From an uncultured Clostridia bacterium (GTDB taxonomy: Bacteria; Bacillota; Clostridia; Oscillospirales; Ruminococcaceae), in NCBI GenBank assembly GCA_947600065.1, contig CANQFZ010000001.1:99375-163374 (forward strand): a DNA stretch of 64,000 nucleotides. Reading direction: 5' to 3'. The position numbers were made by a program, and so were the translations under genes. The notes beneath the pieces were generated by a model. That model saw only the letters and a list, made by a program, of their open reading frames with translations, had not been told where the DNA came from and did not search any database. Positions 524 through 23,228 of the stretch are shown here, one piece after another (positions within the stretch are counted from its first letter, which is position 1; each line of letters begins with the position of its first letter).

Positions 524-790
524 ATGTTAGCGGAATTACGTACAAAATCACAAATCACACTGCCGAAAGAAATTGTTAGCTCTCTCGGACTGTCCGAAGG
601 GGATAAACTTGACGTTTGCGAAAAGGACGGCGTTATTTATTTGACGCCTGTTACTGTGTACCCGAAAAAATATGTTGACGAGCTTCAGACTGAGCTTTCC
701 GAACTAAAGAAAAACATTGCTGACGGAAAACAGCCGACTTTTGACAGCATAGACGCGCTTTTAGAACGTTTGGAGAGTGACAATGCTTAA
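524..790 (+). CDS. AbrB/MazE-type (SpoVT-AbrB fold) antitoxin
   Basis: The 88-residue protein starts MLAELRTKSQITLPKEIV, a typical swapped-hairpin AbrB/MazE DNA-binding start, followed by GLSEGDKLDV. The rest, with YVDELQTELSELKKN, looks like a helical toxin-binding tail. I chose ATG 524 over the track start at 494 because GGGGGTG lies six bases before it, and 494 would lie almost on the transcription start. It overlaps the toxin gene by eight bases, so the two are probably translationally coupled. As in other type II systems it would neutralise the toxin and repress its own promoter (inference). Confidence 0.8.
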   Translation: MLAELRTKSQITLPKEIVSSLGLSEGDKLDVCEKDGVIYLTPVTVYPKKYVDELQTELSELKKNIADGKQPTFDSIDALLERLESDNA

Positions 791-1046
791 ACTGACATTT
801 ACAGACAGGTTTCAGAAACATTACAAAACCTTGAATGAAACTGAAAAAAAGCAATTCAAAAACAAGCTTGCTATTTTTACGGAAAATCCCTTGCACCCGT
901 CGCTTCGTGTAAAAAAGATACAAGGTACAGACGGCTTGTTTGAGTTCAGCGTGAATATGGATATCCGTGTTATCTGGTTTTACGAGGGTGAAGCACTGGT
1001 CGCTCTTGTTGACATAGGTCACCACGATATTCTAAAAAACTATTGA
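783..1046 (+). CDS. RelE/YafQ/ParE-superfamily toxin
   Basis: The 87-residue basic protein has the pattern of the RelE/ParE superfamily: an N-terminal helix pair (FTDRFQKHYKTLNETEKKQF), then RVKKIQGTDGLFEFSV and DIRVIWFY strands, and a C-terminal ALVDIGHHDILKNY. The final HH-D resembles the YafQ/RelE group, mRNA interferases acting on the ribosome, but ParE-like action cannot be excluded. Start ATG 783 follows GGAGA; the GTG at 777 in the track is too close to it. It is co-transcribed with the antitoxin and followed by a hairpin terminator. Confidence 0.8.
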   Translation: MLKLTFTDRFQKHYKTLNETEKKQFKNKLAIFTENPLHPSLRVKKIQGTDGLFEFSVNMDIRVIWFYEGEALVALVDIGHHDILKNY

Positions 1047-1049
1047 TTT

Positions 1050-1078
1050 TTGCCGAGGACATATGCCCTCGGTTTTTT
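1050..1078 (+). terminator. Rho-independent terminator after the toxin gene
   Basis: A CCGAGG/CCTCGG stem with an eight-base loop is followed by TTTTTT. It closes the plus-strand cassette just before the end of the converging minus-strand phage gene. Confidence 0.7.
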
Positions 1079-1418
1079 ATCCGCTTGCTGTAATTTCTCT
1101 CGCCAAAACTTCAAGATACATTTTGCGCCCCTTGACATTCTCAGTCGACTTGATTTCAAACGTTCTTTCCTCGCAGATTATCCGCATATCCTTTGTTATC
1201 TCAACGCCCGGAATCACACGGATTTGAAACAGCTCTGTCGCGTCCGAAAACTGCGCCATATTCGCCCATTTCTTACTCCCGTGCCGACCTTCGCGGTATG
1301 CTCTGACTTCGGCAACGGTCGTTTCTTCCATGTGAGAAAATCCCTCATCATCAAGCACTTTTTTCTTGCTTATTATGCGGATTTTCGTGTTCATTTTTCC
1401 GAAGCTCACACCTTCCAC
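1077..1418 (-). CDS. Phage head closure / head-tail joining protein (SPP1 gp16-like)
   Basis: This 113-residue protein has the layout of the phage head-tail joining family: an MNTKIRIISKK start region, a central AEVRAYREGRHGSKKWANMA, then TELFQIRVIPGVEITKDMRII and FEIKSTENVKGRKMYLEVLA strands. Such proteins close the connector and form the tail attachment site. The start overlaps the end of the upstream connector gene by 13 bases, as usual in tightly packed head modules. Family call from gene order and motif pattern. Confidence 0.75.
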   Translation of the reverse strand: MEGVSFGKMNTKIRIISKKKVLDDEGFSHMEETTVAEVRAYREGRHGSKKWANMAQFSDATELFQIRVIPGVEITKDMRIICEERTFEIKSTENVKGRKMYLEVLAREITASG

Positions 1419-1723
1419 TCCCTATCTAACCGCAGTAACAGATTAACCGTGTTCCAGACCTGCTGACCTGCCGACACATTATCCGCGAAAAATCCGCCTG
1501 TCGAACCGTCTCTGCTCTCATATAAATGACTTACAAGCATTATAACCGCCTGCTCGGTAGTCGGCGGCATTGCTTTTTCCGCATAACTGCCTTCGGGGAT
1601 ATGCTGATAACTTTCGGCATAAGAAATCGCGGCGGTTATGTAACTTTTCAGCAAATCATCATCTTCCGAGTGTTCAAGTATTAAATTTTTCTTGACTTTG
1701 ACGAGTAATTCTTCAATTTCCAT
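1406..1723 (-). CDS. Phage head-tail connector (HK97 gp6-like)
   Basis: The 105-residue, mainly helical protein starts MEIEELLVKVKKNL and has DDDLLKSYITAAISYAESY followed by EQAVIMLVSHLYESRDG. This is the four-helix pattern of the gp6-like connector family that docks under the portal. It lies directly before the head-closure gene and after capsid and head-fibre genes, the expected position. Confidence is high for the role, from sequence pattern plus order. Confidence 0.8.
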   Translation of the reverse strand: MEIEELLVKVKKNLILEHSEDDDLLKSYITAAISYAESYQHIPEGSYAEKAMPPTTEQAVIMLVSHLYESRDGSTGGFFADNVSAGQQVWNTVNLLLRLDREWKV

Positions 1724-3306: not shown

Positions 3307-4020
3307 CTAAAATTTAAGTAATTCCAGACGCTGTTCGAGTTCTTCTACCGAGCGCCCTGTGTTTTGCTTTTTAATCGCGCATTTTGCCGCGATTTTGTCC
3401 ATAAGCGAGTTAATAACTTGCGTCTTGGAGTAGAGCATAGCCGATATTTCGGGCATTTCTTGTCTCTCGGAGCGCTCTAAAACGCCGTCCGCGAAGCCGA
3501 GTTCAATCGCCTTGTTTGCGTTCATCCACGTTTCAGACTCCATAAGATTTGATATTTTCTCCCGCGTCAGACTTGTTTTGATTTCATAAGCGTTGATTAT
3601 GCTCTCTTTTACTTCGTCGAGCATATCTATTGCTTTTCTCATCTCGTTATGGTCGCCGAAAGCCATTGTTGCAGGATTGTGTATCATCATCATTGATACG
3701 GGCGACATTAAAACCTTGTTTCCCGCCATTGCAATAACACTCGCCGCGCTTGCCGCAATGCCGTCAATCTTTACAGTCACGTTATGCTTATAATCCATAA
3801 GCATTGTGTAAATCTGCGCAGCCGCTACACAATCACCGCCCGGAGAGTTAATCCACACGGTAATATCTCCGTCGCCGTTCATCAGTTCCTCTTTAAACAT
3901 CTGCGGCGTAATATCATCGTCAAACCAGCTTTCCTCAGCTATCGTTCCATTTAAGACCAGTGTCCGTTCTTCTGCCCCTGTTTGGTTCAGTGTCTTGGTC
4001 CAGTTCCAGAACTTCTTCAT
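3307..4020 (-). CDS. ClpP-like prohead maturation protease
   Basis: This is a ClpP-fold serine protease used by HK97-like phages to cut capsid delta domains. Visible motifs are NSPGGD (oxyanion region), the catalytic Ser in GIAASAAS and the catalytic His in MMIHNP; the acidic member should lie near ETWMNANKAIELGFAD. I start it at ATG 4020 (MKKFWNW), nine bases after AAAGGGGG, rather than the track's TTG at 4029, which abuts that site. The first 86 bases overlap the end of the portal gene in another frame. The C-terminal tail beyond the ClpP core is charged. Confidence 0.9.
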   Translation of the reverse strand: MKKFWNWTKTLNQTGAEERTLVLNGTIAEESWFDDDITPQMFKEELMNGDGDITVWINSPGGDCVAAAQIYTMLMDYKHNVTVKIDGIAASAASVIAMAGNKVLMSPVSMMMIHNPATMAFGDHNEMRKAIDMLDEVKESIINAYEIKTSLTREKISNLMESETWMNANKAIELGFADGVLERSERQEMPEISAMLYSKTQVINSLMDKIAAKCAIKKQNTGRSVEELEQRLELLKF

Positions 4021-5281
4021 TTGTTCCAACCCCCTTTCCGCTGTTCATAAATGTACCCGCCTGCGTCAGCGGCAGCATATTTCCGTTTACAAGATACAAG
4101 TCGCCGCCTTGCTCTGCGGGTATGCGGTCAAGGTTTTCAAGCTCGCGTATGTCATTCGCCGACATCCAGCCGTTCTGCCTTGCCGTTGCATATCCTCTCA
4201 TTCTGCCCTCATAATCGCCGCGTAAAAGCCCCTCAACGTTGAATTTAATAAACATTGTCTGCTTCTGCTCGGGGTTTAAAAGCGCCTTTTGCATTGCCTG
4301 TTCCCACCGAACAAGCCACGGTTGCAGAGTGTACCGCACAAATTCAAGCGACTGCTGCTCAATGTTCGAGAAACTCGATTTGTCCAAATCTCCTATCATG
4401 TGCGGAGGAATACGGAAAATCCTTGCAATCTCGTCAATCTGAAATTTTCTGGTTTCCAGAAATTGTGCCTGCTCATTCGGCATTCCGATAGGCGTGTACT
4501 TCATTCCTTCTTCGAGAACGGCGATTTTGTGAGAATTTCTCGGACCGCTGAACATTCTCTGCCAGCTTTCGCGCACTTTGTTTGGGTCTTTTAACGTGCC
4601 GGGGTGTTCCAATATCCCGCTCGGAGTTGCGCCGTTTTCAAAAAACTTCGCGCCGTATTCCTCGCAGGACATTCCCAAGCCGATTGCGTTCTTTGCCATT
4701 GCAATAGGCGAGTAGCCGACAAGCCCGTCAAATCCAAGTCCGGGAATATGCAGGACATCTTCCTTTTGGAGTTTTACAATTGTACCCGTCTGACCTTCTT
4801 TCATCTGTCGTTCATCGGGCGGGATTGCATACTCATAATATATCTGCTTGTTATCATCTCTGCAGACTTCCATTCTGTCAGCCATAAGCGGGTATAACGC
4901 TATAACTTCATTCGCATTGTTGCGTATTATCTGCGCGTAGGCATTGCCCCACAACAGCAAGTGTGTCATAAGCGTTTCTCGGAAATTAAACGACGTCATT
5001 TCCGGGTTCGGCTCGTCATGGAAAATGCGATATAAACCGCTGTCAACCGCTTTTTCTTTTCCGCCGTCAGCCTTGTATCGGTATAAATGCAGCGGCAGAC
5101 TTGCGACAGCTTCCGACAATATCCTTACACAGGAATACACTGCCGTAAGCTGCATTGCCGACCGCTCATTAACGTATTTCCCCGAACTTGACTGACCTAA
5201 AAAGAATGAAAACGCGCTTCCGCTTGTGCTGTTCATAGCAGGCGCGTCCCGCGATTTAAACAGTCTTGCAAAAAAATTCAT
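3935..5281 (-). CDS. HK97-family portal protein
   Basis: The 448-residue protein has the portal hallmarks: YVNERSAMQLTAVYSCVRIL near the N-terminus, then LPLHLYRY, LLLWGNAYAQIIRN, and a C-terminal region with PPHMIGDLDKSSFSNIEQQS and FNVEGLLRGDYEGRM. It forms the dodecameric DNA channel at the capsid vertex. The last 95 bases overlap the protease reading frame. The C-terminal tail ends in a charged, likely disordered stretch. Confidence 0.93.
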   Translation of the reverse strand: MNFFARLFKSRDAPAMNSTSGSAFSFFLGQSSSGKYVNERSAMQLTAVYSCVRILSEAVASLPLHLYRYKADGGKEKAVDSGLYRIFHDEPNPEMTSFNFRETLMTHLLLWGNAYAQIIRNNANEVIALYPLMADRMEVCRDDNKQIYYEYAIPPDERQMKEGQTGTIVKLQKEDVLHIPGLGFDGLVGYSPIAMAKNAIGLGMSCEEYGAKFFENGATPSGILEHPGTLKDPNKVRESWQRMFSGPRNSHKIAVLEEGMKYTPIGMPNEQAQFLETRKFQIDEIARIFRIPPHMIGDLDKSSFSNIEQQSLEFVRYTLQPWLVRWEQAMQKALLNPEQKQTMFIKFNVEGLLRGDYEGRMRGYATARQNGWMSANDIRELENLDRIPAEQGGDLYLVNGNMLPLTQAGTFMNSGKGVGTNEEVLELDQDTEPNRGRRTDTGLKWNDS

Positions 5282-5299: not shown

Positions 5300-6919
5300 T
5301 TAAAATACCAAAATCCCTCTGTCATCATATACAGACGTGCTGTTCTGATTTCCGCATCTTATCGCCCTGTCAAGCGCCATTATCGTAGCAACCGCGCCGT
5401 CGATTTTCTCCGTAGACTTCTCTTTGTCTGCCTTGATATTTCCCGCAGGGTCAGTGCGAATAAAAATGTTGTCCATCATCCACCGCAGAACAGGGTGTCC
5501 GCCGTGAGCGATTTTTTCTTCAAGCACAAGCTTCATCAGTTCCTTAGTAGGCGGTGACATATCCTTAAAGCCTTGCCCGAACGGCACAACGGTAAAGCCC
5601 ATATTCTCGAGATTTTGTACCATTTGCACCGCACCCCAACGGTCAAACGCAATTTCCCGAATGTTAAACCGCTCTCCGAGCCGCTCAATAAACTGCTCGA
5701 TATAGCCGTAGTGTACAACATTTCCCTCGGTCGTCATCAAAAAGCCTTGTTGCTCCCAAATATCATACGGCACATGGTCACGCCTTACTCTCAGTCCGAC
5801 ATTTTCTTCGGGTATCCAGAAATACGGCAGAACCATATATTCCCCGTCCTCGTCAATCGGCGGGAATACAAGTACAAATGCCGTTATATCCGTTGTTGAC
5901 GACAAGTCAAGACCACCGTAGCACACGCGCCCTTCAAGTTTGTCCTCATTCACCGCAAACGCGCATTTGTCCCACTTGTCCATAGGCATCCAGCGCACTG
6001 ACTGTTTTACCCACTGGTTTAGCCTTAACTGCCTGAATGAGTTTTCCTCTCCGGGGTTTTGTTTCGCGCTGTTGCACGCCGCCTGCACTTTCTCAATGTC
6101 AACCGTTATTCCGAGCGACGGGTTAGCCTTCGCCCAGACCTTTGGGTCAGTCCAGTCGTCGTTCTGGTCCGCACCGAAAATCACGGAATAAAACGTCGGG
6201 TCAATCTTCCTGCCCGCTTCAATGTCAAGCGCCTTTTGATGTATCTCATAGCAGATAGAGTTTACGTCATTTCCCGCAGTCGTGATAAGGAAAAACAGCG
6301 GCTGCGCCCTCGCGTCGCCAGAACCTTGCGTCATTACGTCATAAAGTTTTCTGTTCGGCTGTGTATGCAACTCGTCAAAAATAACTCCCGAAGTGTTGAA
6401 ACCGTGCTTGTTTGCAACGTCCGCCGAAAGTACTTGATAAACGCTGTTTGTCGGAAGATAGATAAGCCGCTTTTGTGATTCGAGGATTTTCACACGCTTC
6501 ATAAGAGCAGGGCAGAGCCTTACCATGTCCGTTGCGACATCAAAAACGATCTTCGCTTGATTTCTGTCCGCCGCACAGCTGTAAATTTCGGCGCGTTCTT
6601 CGCCGTCGCCGCATAACAACAGCAGCGCGACCGCCGCCGCAAGTTCAGACTTGCCTTGCTTTTTCGGAATTTCAATAAAAGCCGTGTTAAATTGCCTATA
6701 GCCGTTCGGCTTGATTACTCCGAAAATATCTCTGATGATCCTTTCCTGCCAGTCGATAAGGTCAAACCGCTTTCCTGCCCAAATGCCTTTGGTGTGCGAC
6801 AGGCTCTGTATAAAATTTACCGCAAAATCCGCTTTTTGTTTGTCGTAATGGGACGATTTCGCCATAAATTTTGTCGGTTTATAGCCTTTCAGCTTTCGCA
6901 TTTTCGCTGTTTGCGCCAT
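5300..6919 (-). CDS. terL: Terminase large subunit
   Basis: This is the 539-residue packaging motor. Walker A is in EIPKKQGKSELAA and Walker B plus catalytic acid in GVIFDELHTQ. The nuclease half shows GGLDLSSTTDITAFVLVF and an acidic FDRWGA segment. I begin it at ATG 6919 (MAQTAKMRK), which follows GGTGGGGGA, instead of the track start 6967, whose extra 16 codons cross a palindrome. It lies downstream of the small subunit with a 148-base gap. Confidence 0.92.
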   Translation of the reverse strand: MAQTAKMRKLKGYKPTKFMAKSSHYDKQKADFAVNFIQSLSHTKGIWAGKRFDLIDWQERIIRDIFGVIKPNGYRQFNTAFIEIPKKQGKSELAAAVALLLLCGDGEERAEIYSCAADRNQAKIVFDVATDMVRLCPALMKRVKILESQKRLIYLPTNSVYQVLSADVANKHGFNTSGVIFDELHTQPNRKLYDVMTQGSGDARAQPLFFLITTAGNDVNSICYEIHQKALDIEAGRKIDPTFYSVIFGADQNDDWTDPKVWAKANPSLGITVDIEKVQAACNSAKQNPGEENSFRQLRLNQWVKQSVRWMPMDKWDKCAFAVNEDKLEGRVCYGGLDLSSTTDITAFVLVFPPIDEDGEYMVLPYFWIPEENVGLRVRRDHVPYDIWEQQGFLMTTEGNVVHYGYIEQFIERLGERFNIREIAFDRWGAVQMVQNLENMGFTVVPFGQGFKDMSPPTKELMKLVLEEKIAHGGHPVLRWMMDNIFIRTDPAGNIKADKEKSTEKIDGAVATIMALDRAIRCGNQNSTSVYDDRGILVF

Positions 6920-19070: not shown

Positions 19071-19195
19071 AAACTCAATTGAGTTTATATAACGGTATTA
19101 TACATTCAGTTGAGTAAATTGTCAAGTACTTTTTGAAAAAAATATTTTCAATTGAGTAAATTCAACTTGACACATTGTAAATTTTGTTGTATAAT
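19071..19195. promoter_or_regulatory. Genetic switch: divergent promoters with three dyad operators
   Basis: The rightward repressor promoter is TTGACA (19167-19172), 17 bases, TATAAT (19190-19195). The leftward lytic promoter on the minus strand is TTGACA (19125-19120), 17 bases, TATAAT (19102-19097). Dyads follow the pattern ACTCAATTGAGT: a perfect 16-bp AAACTCAATTGAGTTT at 19071-19086, TTCAGTTGAGTAAA at 19104-19117 inside the leftward spacer, and TCAATTGAGT at 19148-19157. This is a compact lambda-like switch. Confidence 0.85.
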
Positions 19196-19218: not shown

Positions 19219-19584
19219 ATGACAGTTGAGGAACAGTTAAAAGAACTGATTTTAAGCAGATTTAAAAGCGTTCGTGCATTTGCAATTGCAATAGACGTCC
19301 CGCCGTCCACTATCAACAACATTTTCACGCGCGGTATAGGCGGCGTTAGACTTGGGACAGCTATTCCGATGTGTATAGCATTAAACATTGATATTGCTTA
19401 TCTGGTAAGCGGGGAAATCCGCTCGAAAGACATTGCCCTGCAACTCGAGCCTGACGAAGAAAAACTCTTGAATGCTTACCGGAGCTTTAATGCCGAAGGG
19501 CAGGAAAGGCTGCTGCAATATGCTGTTGATATGACGCAACTTGACCGATACAAAAAAGTATGTGGTAAATCTGATCTGGCTTAG
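19219..19584 (+). CDS. CI-like XRE lysogeny repressor
   Basis: The 121-residue protein has an N-terminal HTH (VRAFAIAIDVPPSTINNIFTRG) and a linker with LVSGEIRSKD, followed by a short helical C-terminal domain ending NAEGQERLLQYAVDMTQL. It lacks a LexA/CI-type protease domain, so induction must work by other means, for example the antirepressor at 18.1-18.8 kb. It is the first gene of the plus-strand lysogeny module and has its own consensus promoter. Confidence 0.85.
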   Translation: MTVEEQLKELILSRFKSVRAFAIAIDVPPSTINNIFTRGIGGVRLGTAIPMCIALNIDIAYLVSGEIRSKDIALQLEPDEEKLLNAYRSFNAEGQERLLQYAVDMTQLDRYKKVCGKSDLA

Positions 19585-19642: not shown

Positions 19643-20536
19643 ATGAAATCTAAGACTACTGCGTTGATTTTATGCATATTCTTAGGCTATTTGGGTATAC
19701 ACCGTTTTTATGCAGGCAAAATAAAATCTGGTATTCTTTATCTTTTTACATTCGGACTGTTCGGGATAGGTTGGATTGTTGATGTAGTCTTGATTTGCAA
19801 AGACAATTTTCTTCCCAATCAAGCAATGGCTTCGGTCAGAACAACTTCGCAGCCTGCTCAAAAAAACACTTCTACACCAACTTCTGTTTCCGTATCTGCG
19901 CCACGTCAGTATGTTCCAATGCCGTCATTTCCAAATTTTACAGACGGATACGGGTTACAATATGAGTATGAAAATGAATTGTACTTGATAAACACGACAG
20001 CCGCTGAACTTAACGTAAAACTTGGTGGGGAAATAACTTTCAAGCAAGAACCGGAAAACGAGCACGACAATCAAGCTGTCGCCGTTTTTCAAGACAACCG
20101 CAGGCTCGGTTATATATACAGAGGTCAGACGCAGGAAATGGCGAACCGTTGGTTAAAAAATGGGACTTCGCTTTTGGGATATATAAGCTCCGTCGATATT
20201 TCGCATAATAAAATCAAGTATAAAATCGGATTTTATAAGCCGCTCGCTGAAATGCAGAAAGAAACCTTTAAACTTACAGGACTGCGACAGAAGGACAGCA
20301 TAGGAGAGCTGAGAGAGGACAACATCAGGATTTTCTCTGTGGGTGATAGTGTTACTGCAGAATATGATGTGGCAGAAGAAAAATATATCGTATGGTGCGG
20401 CGGCTGCGAAATCGGCACGTTGCCGAAAAATGCTGAAGAATTTGCAGAAGATAAAAAGAAAATCATTGGAGTTTTGACAAAAATAGATTTTGATGATGAA
20501 GATAAATGCTCAGCAGAGGTTGAACTTTATAAGTAA
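19643..20536 (+). CDS. TM2-domain and HIRAN-domain membrane protein
   Basis: The 297-residue protein has an N-terminal TM2 domain: a first helix with ALILCIFLGYLGIHRFYAGK, then FGLFGIGWIVDVVLICKDN. A Ser/Thr/Pro linker follows (about 70-95), and then a HIRAN-like domain with LGGEITFKQEPENEHDNQAVAVF and LGYIYRGQTQEMANRWL. HIRAN domains bind DNA ends or damaged DNA. Its place in the lysogeny module suggests a host-benefit or exclusion gene rather than a structural gene (inference). Confidence 0.8.
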   Translation: MKSKTTALILCIFLGYLGIHRFYAGKIKSGILYLFTFGLFGIGWIVDVVLICKDNFLPNQAMASVRTTSQPAQKNTSTPTSVSVSAPRQYVPMPSFPNFTDGYGLQYEYENELYLINTTAAELNVKLGGEITFKQEPENEHDNQAVAVFQDNRRLGYIYRGQTQEMANRWLKNGTSLLGYISSVDISHNKIKYKIGFYKPLAEMQKETFKLTGLRQKDSIGELREDNIRIFSVGDSVTAEYDVAEEKYIVWCGGCEIGTLPKNAEEFAEDKKKIIGVLTKIDFDDEDKCSAEVELYK

Positions 20537-20538
20537 TT

Positions 20539-20557
20539 TTTGCAATTGATTGCAAAA
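20539..20557. repeat. TTTGCAATTGATTGCAAAA palindrome, copy 2
   Basis: Identical to the copy upstream of terL at 6937-6955. Here it follows the HIRAN gene stop and may also act as a transcript end hairpin. Confidence 0.5.
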
Positions 20558-20683
20558 ACGGATTTTAAGAGGGTGAGAAAATGGCATCAGAAAAAAGTTC
20601 CTGTGTTGTATGAATATTTGTTCGAAATTCTATAAAATTTGGTCGATTTTTTGTAACATATCCACAAATTGATTGTTTTTTTA

Positions 20684-20712
20684 TTGACAATTACAGCTAT
20701 TGGGAGTATAAT
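20684..20712 (+). promoter_or_regulatory. Consensus promoter of the NYN gene leader
   Basis: TTGACA (20684-20689), 17 bases, TATAAT (20707-20712). It gives a leader of about 100 bases before the NYN gene. Confidence 0.8.
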
Positions 20713-20730
20713 ATAAATGTAGTTAAGACT

Positions 20731-20812
20731 ACACTATATCAGACAGTGTATTCCCGATAGTAGTTCCCCCACCATAAGGGGTGTTACGAGGTCGGGAGTA
20801 TTTTTATTTTTG
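20731..20812 (+). ncRNA. Structured leader RNA upstream of the NYN gene
   Basis: The transcript would fold into a small ACACT/AGTGT hairpin (20731-20749), then a larger nested structure. TTCCCGA (20751-20757) pairs with TCGGGAG (20792-20798), enclosing CCCC/GGGG around an ACCATA loop, followed by ATTTTTATTTTT. The stem plus U-rich tail looks like an attenuator or a small RNA ending just before the NYN ribosome site. Function not known. Confidence 0.6.
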
Positions 20813-20820
20813 GAGGTTTT

Positions 20821-21561
20821 ATGAATAGCACTGATTTGGTAAGTATTAAGCGCACAGTCACAACAGCTATACTCGTTGACGGTGGTTTTTACAGGCGGCG
20901 AGCTGTATTTTATCAAGGCTATATTTCACCCGAAGAACGGGTTGAGGAACTTATTTCCCATTGTCGTTCATTACTTAATGCGGACAAATTTGAACAGCGA
21001 AATCTTTATCGCATATTTTATTATGATTGCCCACCTATTGATAAAAATGTATATCATCCGCTTCTTAACAAAAGCATAAATCTCGGTAATTCAAATGATT
21101 ACAAATGGCAAAAAAAGTTTTTAGAAACGCTTAAAAGCAAAAGGAAAGTAGCCTTGCGTCTTGGCAGACTTAGCGAAAATGACAGTACATATTTGTTAAA
21201 GCCCGATGTTCAGAAAAAACTGATAAGAGGAGCAATAAGCATAAACGATTTGACAGAACGGGATTTTGCTTTAAATATAACACAAAAAGGCGTAGACATG
21301 AAGATAGGCGTTGACATTACAACTTTATCAGTAAAAAAGCAGGTTGACCAGATAATTCTTATTTCAGGCGACAGTGATTTCGTTCCTGCCGCAAAACAAG
21401 CAAGGCGAGAGGGCATAGATTTTCTTTTAAATCCGTTGGGGGCGTCTATCAAAAAAGATTTATATGAGCATATCGACGGCTTAATAAATTATATTCCGCA
21501 AAAATACACCAATAAATCAGAGCATACAGATGAAACTGATGAACAGAAACTCACTACATAG
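20821..21561 (+). CDS. NYN/LabA-like PIN-fold ribonuclease-type protein
   Basis: The 246-residue protein has the NYN pattern: TAILVDGGFYRRRA at the start with the first catalytic Asp, then GVDMKIGVDITTLSVKKQVDQIILISGDSDFVPAAKQAR carrying the other acidic residues, and GIDFLLNPLGASIKKDLYEHID. These are metal-dependent PIN-like nucleases, usually acting on RNA. It lies between the lysogeny genes and the integrase with its own promoter and a structured leader. It may be a defence or exclusion gene carried by the prophage (inference). Confidence 0.88.
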   Translation: MNSTDLVSIKRTVTTAILVDGGFYRRRAVFYQGYISPEERVEELISHCRSLLNADKFEQRNLYRIFYYDCPPIDKNVYHPLLNKSINLGNSNDYKWQKKFLETLKSKRKVALRLGRLSENDSTYLLKPDVQKKLIRGAISINDLTERDFALNITQKGVDMKIGVDITTLSVKKQVDQIILISGDSDFVPAAKQARREGIDFLLNPLGASIKKDLYEHIDGLINYIPQKYTNKSEHTDETDEQKLTT

Positions 21562-21580: not shown

Positions 21581-22633
21581 ATGGCTTCTGCAAAGAAATT
21601 GCCGTCTGGGAAATGGCGTGTGCTGCTGTACACGGGAGCTGATGAGCAAGGCAAAAGAAAGTATAAATCATTTACGGCTGACAGTAAAAAAGAAGCAGAG
21701 TTTCTCGCGGCGCAATATAACCAACTGCACATAGAAGTTAACCGCTCAGAAATGACGCTCCGAGCGGCAACAGAGCGGTATATAAAATCAAAAGAAAATA
21801 TCCTCTCTCCGTCCACCGTCCGCGGCTATTATGTGATTTTGAAAAATTACCTGCCGCGTCTGTTTGCGGTAAAAATCAAGGATATAAATCAAGAAATTAT
21901 CCAGATTGCTTTTAATGATTTCGCAAAGAGCTACAGCGCGAAAACTTGCCGTAACGCTCACGGCTTAATAGCAGATGTCCTCAAATCGGAGCGCCCCGAC
22001 TTGCATTTGAAAACAACATTGCCGCAAAAATCAAAATCCGACATTTATGTCCCCGACGCGCAGGAAATCGAGCAAATTTATCCGCTGACCGAGGGTACAA
22101 ATATTGAAATACCTTTTATCCTTGCAACGCAGTGCGGGCTTCGTGCGTCCGAAATAAGCGGGCTTGATGTATCCTGCGTCTATCCCGACCATATCGAGAT
22201 TAAGCAGGCGCGAGTAGACGGGCTTGACGGCGCAGTACTCAAAAAACCGAAATCATATTCGGGCTTTAGAAGTATTCCGATAAGCGCAGAAATACACGAC
22301 ATTCTGATAAGCAAGGCAGACGGGAGCAGAATTTGCTCAATGACTTCTACTTCTATTTCTTCGGCTTGGGGAAAATTTCGAGCAAAACACAAAATAGACG
22401 CTCATTGCAATTTCCATGCGCTCCGCCACCATTTCGCGAGCCGGTGCTTGCTTTTGGGAATACCGCAAAAGTACATTGCTGAGCTTATGGGGCATAACTC
22501 ACTCAATATGATTGAGAAAGTATATCAGCACGTTTTTCCTTCGGCAATGGCAGAGTTCGCGGAAATGTTGCGGGAGCAGGACAAAAAATTTATGCAACAC
22601 AAAATGCAACACAAAAATAAAAAACTCGCATAA
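21581..22633 (+). CDS. int: Tyrosine-type prophage integrase
   Basis: The 350-residue recombinase has an AP2-like arm-binding start (KLPSGKWRVLLYTGADEQGKRKYKSF), a SAM-like core-binding region and a catalytic domain. Visible active-site residues are Arg in ATQCGLRASEISGL, His-x-x-Arg in HALRHHFASR, His in MGHNS and the nucleophile Tyr in EKVYQHVF. It ends 25 bases before a tRNA/tmRNA-like 3' end, the attachment site. The last residues contain a duplicated MQHK. Confidence 0.93.
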   Translation: MASAKKLPSGKWRVLLYTGADEQGKRKYKSFTADSKKEAEFLAAQYNQLHIEVNRSEMTLRAATERYIKSKENILSPSTVRGYYVILKNYLPRLFAVKIKDINQEIIQIAFNDFAKSYSAKTCRNAHGLIADVLKSERPDLHLKTTLPQKSKSDIYVPDAQEIEQIYPLTEGTNIEIPFILATQCGLRASEISGLDVSCVYPDHIEIKQARVDGLDGAVLKKPKSYSGFRSIPISAEIHDILISKADGSRICSMTSTSISSAWGKFRAKHKIDAHCNFHALRHHFASRCLLLGIPQKYIAELMGHNSLNMIEKVYQHVFPSAMAEFAEMLREQDKKFMQHKMQHKNKKLA

Positions 22634-22657: not shown

Positions 22658-22686
22658 AACGGGTTCAATTCCCCTCGGCTCCACCA
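22658..22686 (+). other. Prophage att site: 3' end of a tRNA or tmRNA
   Basis: The sequence reads as a T-arm (ACGGG-TTCAATT-CCCCT), a seven-base acceptor strand CGGCTCC, A and CCA. No 5' part is present because the integrase gene precedes it, so this is the duplicated 3' end on the integrase side. The complete gene is expected beyond the left edge. CGGCTCCACCA most resembles tmRNA (ssrA) ends, but a tRNA is possible. Confidence 0.75.
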
Positions 22687-23199: not shown

Positions 23200-23228
23200 T
23201 TGACAAACATAAATAATGGTGTTATAAT
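23200..23228 (+). promoter_or_regulatory. Consensus promoter of the FtsX-type ABC operon
   Basis: TTGACA (23200-23205), 17 bases, TATAAT (23223-23228). The palindrome GTACATGTAC (23229-23238) directly behind the -10 box, with a further TAGTAC at about 23268, could be an operator. Confidence 0.8.

Follow-up and report, generated by a model that had tools for sequence, protein, structure and literature searches.

Genes and features at the locus

The window, a stretch of 64,000 nucleotides from an uncultured Clostridia bacterium, holds the right-hand end of a prophage that looks intact, is 32.6 kb long and is flanked by 26-bp att repeats. Here, a repressor-like gene, a TM2-HIRAN gene, a promoter, a nested hairpin, an NYN ribonuclease (RNase) gene and an integrase gene follow one another from left to right (Table 1). 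A sequence-only reading of this DNA had described the TM2-HIRAN and NYN genes as lysogenic cargo and had given the nuclease a perfect promoter of its own. Both open reading frames were confirmed in position, the promoter is perfect, and the RNA-NYN module does lie between repressor and integrase within the prophage. Three further perfect TTGACA-17-TATAAT promoters were seen: a divergent pair between repressor genes (19097-19125, minus strand; 19167-19195, plus strand) and one outside the prophage (23200-23228, plus strand).

Table 1. Coordinates of the features in the window
Feature	Position	Strand	Evidence
HTH repressor-like protein (context)	19219..19584	+	weak HTH_3/HTH_26 matches
TM2-HIRAN protein, neighbouring prophage cargo	19643..20536	+	Pfam TM2 1.6e-20, HIRAN 1.5e-9
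Sigma-70 promoter of the RNA/NYN unit, TTGACA-17-TATAAT	20684..20712	+	12/12 match
Small 5' hairpin GUAGUUAAGACUAC, predicted transcript start	20719..20732	+	fold prediction
Conserved structured RNA (model R1), Rfam TEG147-like, with U-run	20741..20808	+	R1 67 bits, E 7e-15
Internal loop AGUA (20759-20762) opposite GAG (20788-20790), putative sarcin-ricin/bulged-G type motif	20759..20790	+	sequence consensus AGUA/GAA
NYN-domain (PIN-like) ribonuclease, 246 aa, proposed toxin/effector	20821..21561	+	Pfam NYN 1.7e-11
Prophage integrase (context)	21581..22633	+	Pfam Phage_integrase 2.7e-15
Att repeat of prophage, 26 bp, tRNA 3' end-like	22661..22686	+	direct repeat, other copy 32.5 kb upstream on the same contig

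The same reading had envisioned the TM2-HIRAN and NYN proteins as a two-gene defence pair. The two genes are indeed adjacent and co-directional in the window, but NYN has a separate promoter and its own RNA, and no HIRAN homologue was found among about 160 related NYN loci, where a single TM2-type match occurred (L152). A HIRAN-NYN pairing is hardly tenable on these counts, and we rejected it. Thus, the TM2-HIRAN gene is outside the conserved RNA-NYN unit, and the hairpin RNA, rather than the gene pair, is the real finding at this locus. In the TM2-HIRAN protein itself, a TM2 membrane anchor is fused to HIRAN; this fusion looks rare, since phage matches (Aeromonas and Roseburia phages) are limited to the TM2 parts.

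A structured RNA and an NYN nuclease

The segment 20745-20805 folds into a nested hairpin of -25 kcal/mol (z -4.8), and none of 200 shuffled sequences folded as well. Its outer stem pairs 20748-20758 with 20791-20801 and its inner hairpin pairs 20766-20769 with 20778-20781. The sole terminator before the NYN gene is this conserved RNA. Of the structured leader proposed earlier, the nested, U-tailed hairpin stands, but the element is not merely a leader; it appears to be a stand-alone RNA ending in its own terminator. Inverted repeats near the transcript start, present in 83 of 108 relatives and in 41% of shuffles, lend weak support to the small 5' hairpin. No tandem RNA repeat was found at 20560-20830.

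Rfam TEG147 (RF03535) matches the window RNA over its full length with 41.3 bits (E 4.6e-7), below the gathering cut-off of 56.1. Judged by this match, the RNA is a TEG147 relative that the curated Rfam model appears too narrow to take in. A riboswitch or another Rfam family was also considered for the hairpin and set aside, TEG147 being the one Rfam match.

The NYN domain (PF01936) scores 45.2 bits, above its gathering threshold of 24.2. Across 90 NYN sequences, D20, D159, D165, D184 and D186 are invariant, as are R113, K156, H217 and D219; the invariant acids are the kind of set expected of a PIN-like RNase and are putatively catalytic. The AlphaFold model of the protein has a pLDDT of 92, and its best named matches in a viral structure library are LabA/NYN proteins. 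Sequence and fold searches of the PDB gave nothing close among solved structures. The best PHROG is phrog_5783, whose function class is not annotated. The NYN domain is shared with the bacterial NYN/LabA/DUF88 proteins (PADLOC 'NYN', HEC-09; TIGR00288), to which the matches are partial and weak.

The RNA is conserved before NYN genes

NYN relatives were gathered solely on the basis of protein similarity (nine phage records, 80 of at least 556 genome loci and 80 of 187 viral contigs), and the 200 bases before each NYN gene were examined. A long-stem, U-tailed hairpin was found before 149 of 171 by a strict rule, which in a few chose a different stem, and before the rest by eye. The sequence-only reading had suggested looking for conservation of the hairpin before NYN genes; it is conserved and it covaries. 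An alignment of 68 RNAs contains three helices with compensatory changes in all 14 pairs. In this alignment 93.2% of cells are paired against 72.2% after shuffling, double-change cells number 234 against 62, and the covariation score is 0.706 against 0.29. The sole extra covariation that might indicate a pseudoknot or further helices is weak (columns 28-50 and 10-67).

In 161 of 170 loci the covariance model R1 (E<=1e-3) places the RNA immediately ahead of NYN; these include 93 of the 102 loci left out of model building. The remaining nine of the 170 have weaker R1 matches or hairpins recognised by eye. R1 also matches distant plasmid members from Salinivibrio and Xanthomonas, and gives a weak match in Thermus. 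Ahead of the NYNs that have diverged furthest (E. coli, Proteus, Thermus, Campylobacter), hairpins of similar size are present with a weak R1 match or none, and four weak NYN relatives carry no R1 RNA above 24 bits. By the model, the RNA occurs in Bacillota, Actinomycetota, Spirochaetota, Fibrobacterota and Pseudomonadota; Campylobacterota and Deinococcota are represented just by weak or by-eye cases. Distances between RNAs correlate with those between the proteins (Mantel r 0.36; 0 of 2000 permutations). Genomic evidence strongly favours the idea of an RNA-regulated nuclease, since every family member examined has a conserved, covarying RNA upstream.

The layout of the unit is also shared. 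A sigma-70 promoter of at least 10/12 matches lies within 110 nt before the RNA in 64% of NYN-linked relatives against 6% after shuffling; its -10 box precedes the RNA stem by about 35 nt. The median distance from the end of the RNA stem to the start of the NYN domain is 27 nt, and there is therefore hardly any space for a second promoter. Since the gap is this short and the promoter precedes the RNA, transcription of NYN would depend almost wholly on read-through of the RNA, a layout that would keep the RNA above the NYN mRNA. A phage integrase usually adjoins the RNA-NYN module in relatives; in about 60 of 125, an integrase or serine recombinase gene comes next.

Some NYN genes are diverged or decayed. 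In E. coli EDL933 (L270, 2001-2502), a decayed prophage keeps the hairpin region but only the first part of NYN; about 200 genomes of E. coli share this state, and O157:H7 predominates among those listed. In 73 genomes the region is largely or fully present. A diverged NYN relative occurs in 136 plasmid records of Campylobacter pTet-type plasmids, and in the two examined (L253, L257) it adjoins a large SNF2-type protein and has a different-looking upstream hairpin. In Lactococcus phage Bacchus (L003, 3001-3672), NYN is frameshifted near its start and the upstream hairpin is kept.

The RNA also occurs without NYN

Among 391 Clostridia genomes, NYN was present in 10, and the RNA preceded it in all 10; R1 detected nine of these RNAs, and the tenth (L269) is a divergent hairpin that was read by eye and then folded. 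The same survey found 17 genomes with the RNA, of which eight have no NYN next to it, or seven of 16 if the L227 RNA (40 bits, no U-run), a possible false solo, is left out. Among 399 Bacillota genomes, each of the five full NYN relatives had the RNA, and two or more RNA genomes had no NYN. These genome samples are modest and some solo assignments may be wrong; orphan RNAs in genomes below about 40 bits (e.g., L211, L184-L199) were taken as chance terminators and were not counted.

Solo RNAs are found in viral contigs too, and they often have promoters. In 21 solo-locus RNAs, one of which does precede an NYN gene (L242:6439-6505), the fold is retained and covaries just as strongly: 94.9% of cells are paired, 13 of 14 pairs show double changes, and the score is 0.726 against 0.299 when shuffled. 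This alignment was fitted to R1 and so leans towards structure, but slid and shuffled controls fail to account for the signal. Integrases, lysis genes, terminase, toxin-antitoxin genes and defence-type genes are the neighbours of these RNAs.

Four loci show other arrangements. On L179, an R1 RNA (1501-1567, minus strand) and a ribosome-binding site stand directly before a Schlafen/AlbA_2 gene (675-1487, minus strand) that starts 13 nt after the RNA, replaces NYN and adjoins a LexA-type repressor; it is a possible alternative effector. Viral contig L238 has two solo RNAs about 2.3 kb apart (6214-6281 and 3843-3911, minus strand) beside an Abi_2 (AbiF-type) gene. On L217, the gene of a PBECR3 nuclease (phage Barnase/EndoU/ColicinE5-like) follows a solo RNA (1501-1568) at a distance of 59 nt. 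On L156, a second high-scoring RNA copy (4945-5012, the same as L242 7451-7518) is directly before the integrase, and the NYN gene immediately upstream has a separate, weaker one.

Because solo RNAs keep a covarying fold, and often a promoter, without an NYN gene, the RNA would act in trans. Furthermore, NYN was never found without the RNA and the RNA was often found without NYN, as would be anticipated for a toxin-antitoxin pair. Such an asymmetry is consistent with an RNA antitoxin that acts in trans on an RNase toxin, the two being arranged in a type III-like manner. As a counterpoint, the solo RNAs might serve a target in the host that has nothing to do with NYN. The missing ToxIN-like tandem repeats and the weak or absent R1 match at the most divergent NYNs also count against an RNA antitoxin.

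The solo copies bear on two other explanations. The RNA might be a cis-acting leader or attenuator that merely controls transcription into NYN, through NYN autoregulation or in response to a ligand or host factor. Rfam does type TEG147 as Cis-reg, the RNA is a terminator about 27 nt before NYN, and NYN could bind its own leader. A pure cis-leader would be expected to decay once its gene is lost, whereas the solo RNAs retain fold and often promoter, and about half of the sampled RNA genomes in the class are solo. We therefore judge it unlikely. Alternatively, NYN might require the RNA as a cofactor or scaffold in an RNP nuclease, with solo phage RNAs serving as decoys. Linkage, fold conservation and solo copies in trans also fit such an RNA-activated effector, but the RNA has no apparent variable guide segment, and loci with the RNA alone are more readily expected of an inhibitor than of a cofactor; we consider it about as unlikely as the cis-acting leader.

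The internal loop resembles a sarcin-ricin motif

Among the unpaired bases of the RNA, conservation peaks in the internal loop, at G-U-A of its 5' strand and G-A of its 3' strand. Over 68 RNAs, the U-A combination is present in 64, the A opposite G in 53, and the GUA/GA core in 51. AGUA opposite GAA is the sequence of the sarcin-ricin (bulged-G) motif. That motif combines a bulged G with two characteristic pairs, trans U-A and sheared A-G (pair types in PMC8450098). The internal loop of the RNA may form the same three-dimensional motif. The likeness is suggestive because VapC20, a PIN-domain toxin, cleaves the sarcin-ricin loop, as given in the title of a paper (Winther 2013) cited in PMC7891357. 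VapC toxins belong to the same PIN-like RNase class as NYN; unlike the NYN module, they have a protein antitoxin, VapB, and no RNA partner.

In a wider reading, the RNA could be a shared, mobile inhibitor: a mimic of the sarcin-ricin loop that would neutralise nucleases acting on ribosomes or RNA. These would always include NYN and might include other RNases encoded beside solo copies, such as the Schlafen/AlbA_2 protein of L179, Abi_2 of L238 and PBECR3 of L217. The solo copies in phages would then be RNA anti-defence elements. We regard this as possible but rather unlikely. Solitary CRISPR repeats act as RNA anti-CRISPRs, and the solo phage RNAs can be likened to them.

Comparison with known systems

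The closest proven analogue appears to be AbiF/RCd22 of a C. difficile prophage, where inhibition by RNA has been shown experimentally and the RNA both affects expression in cis and binds the toxin in trans (PMC12373285). Both systems are prophage-borne, and in both a promoter (SigA in AbiF), a structured noncoding RNA and a Rho-independent terminator precede the protein gene (Rfam abiF, RF03085). The toxin there is Abi_2/AbiF and here NYN; its RNA consists of two abiF motifs and a separate terminator, whereas here one nested hairpin is both motif and terminator.

In type III toxin-antitoxin systems (ToxIN, AbiQ, TenpIN, CptIN), an RNA gene, a terminator and a toxin gene stand under one promoter, the toxin is an RNase, and the RNA is in excess. 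The RNA-NYN unit likewise has a structured RNA directly upstream of the proposed toxin gene under one promoter, and a predicted Rho-independent terminator (outer stem and U-run) between them. In contrast to type III systems, it has a single, non-repeated RNA and an NYN domain in place of the ToxN/AbiQ fold. The module would operate much as type III systems do, but since tandem RNA repeats and the ToxN fold are both missing, we do not file it as classical type III.

The sole named relative of the RNA is Teg147 of S. aureus (Rfam RF03535), with which the window RNA has fold and loops in common. The L136 RNA is identical to the Rfam TEG147 consensus at 44 of 49 positions (by eye), and an NYN gene follows it. 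A blastn search of phages and plasmids with the Teg147 consensus gave no match, and a degenerate Teg147 pattern occurred in one viral contig, that of L136. Teg147 is an expressed sRNA from a genomic island, with no partner assigned (PMC3053349, PMC5826253). Its expression and listing as a bona fide sRNA (PMC5826253), and the many solo copies of the RNA, would suit an independent phage sRNA with, for example, host mRNA targets, for which NYN is the processing or turnover nuclease. But the RNA has almost no unpaired variable seed, its conservation being in the internal and apical loops, and NYN always has it in cis, which simple processing does not need. Such an sRNA is thus very improbable. In the open-access literature searched, we found no description of an NYN-RNA pair or of an NYN with an RNA antitoxin.

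Proposed mechanism

We favour, as moderately probable, a two-part module in which the RNA inhibits the NYN RNase, which is freed when the RNA supply falls. A single promoter would give an RNA of about 90 nt, with the conserved part 20741-20808, that ends at its own terminator, and occasional read-through would yield the NYN mRNA, so that the RNA is always in excess. The RNA would bind and silence the NYN RNase, with the apical loop ACNAUAA and the internal loop AGUA/GAA (sarcin-ricin-like) as its probable contact sites. Should transcription or the RNA supply fail, as on phage takeover or prophage loss, free NYN would cut cellular or phage RNA, leading to abortive infection and/or prophage addiction. 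Solo copies in other phages may protect their carriers from RNA-NYN modules. We infer this binding, inhibition and toxicity, as well as the target and trigger, from a near-obligate linkage of RNA and NYN, a conserved fold between promoter and terminator, catalytic-type residues, phage context and solo RNAs. Together they suggest a hitherto unrecognised candidate toxin-antitoxin or phage-defence module.

If this reading is right, the module would be a widespread RNA-antitoxin/RNase system with a toxin fold not known from type III systems. The RNA family of Teg147, an sRNA with no assigned role in the searched literature, would gain a partner and a function open to testing, and solo phage RNAs would be predicted to be anti-toxins. 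Furthermore, RNA-inhibited nucleases would extend to at least five phyla, to phages and to conjugative plasmids.
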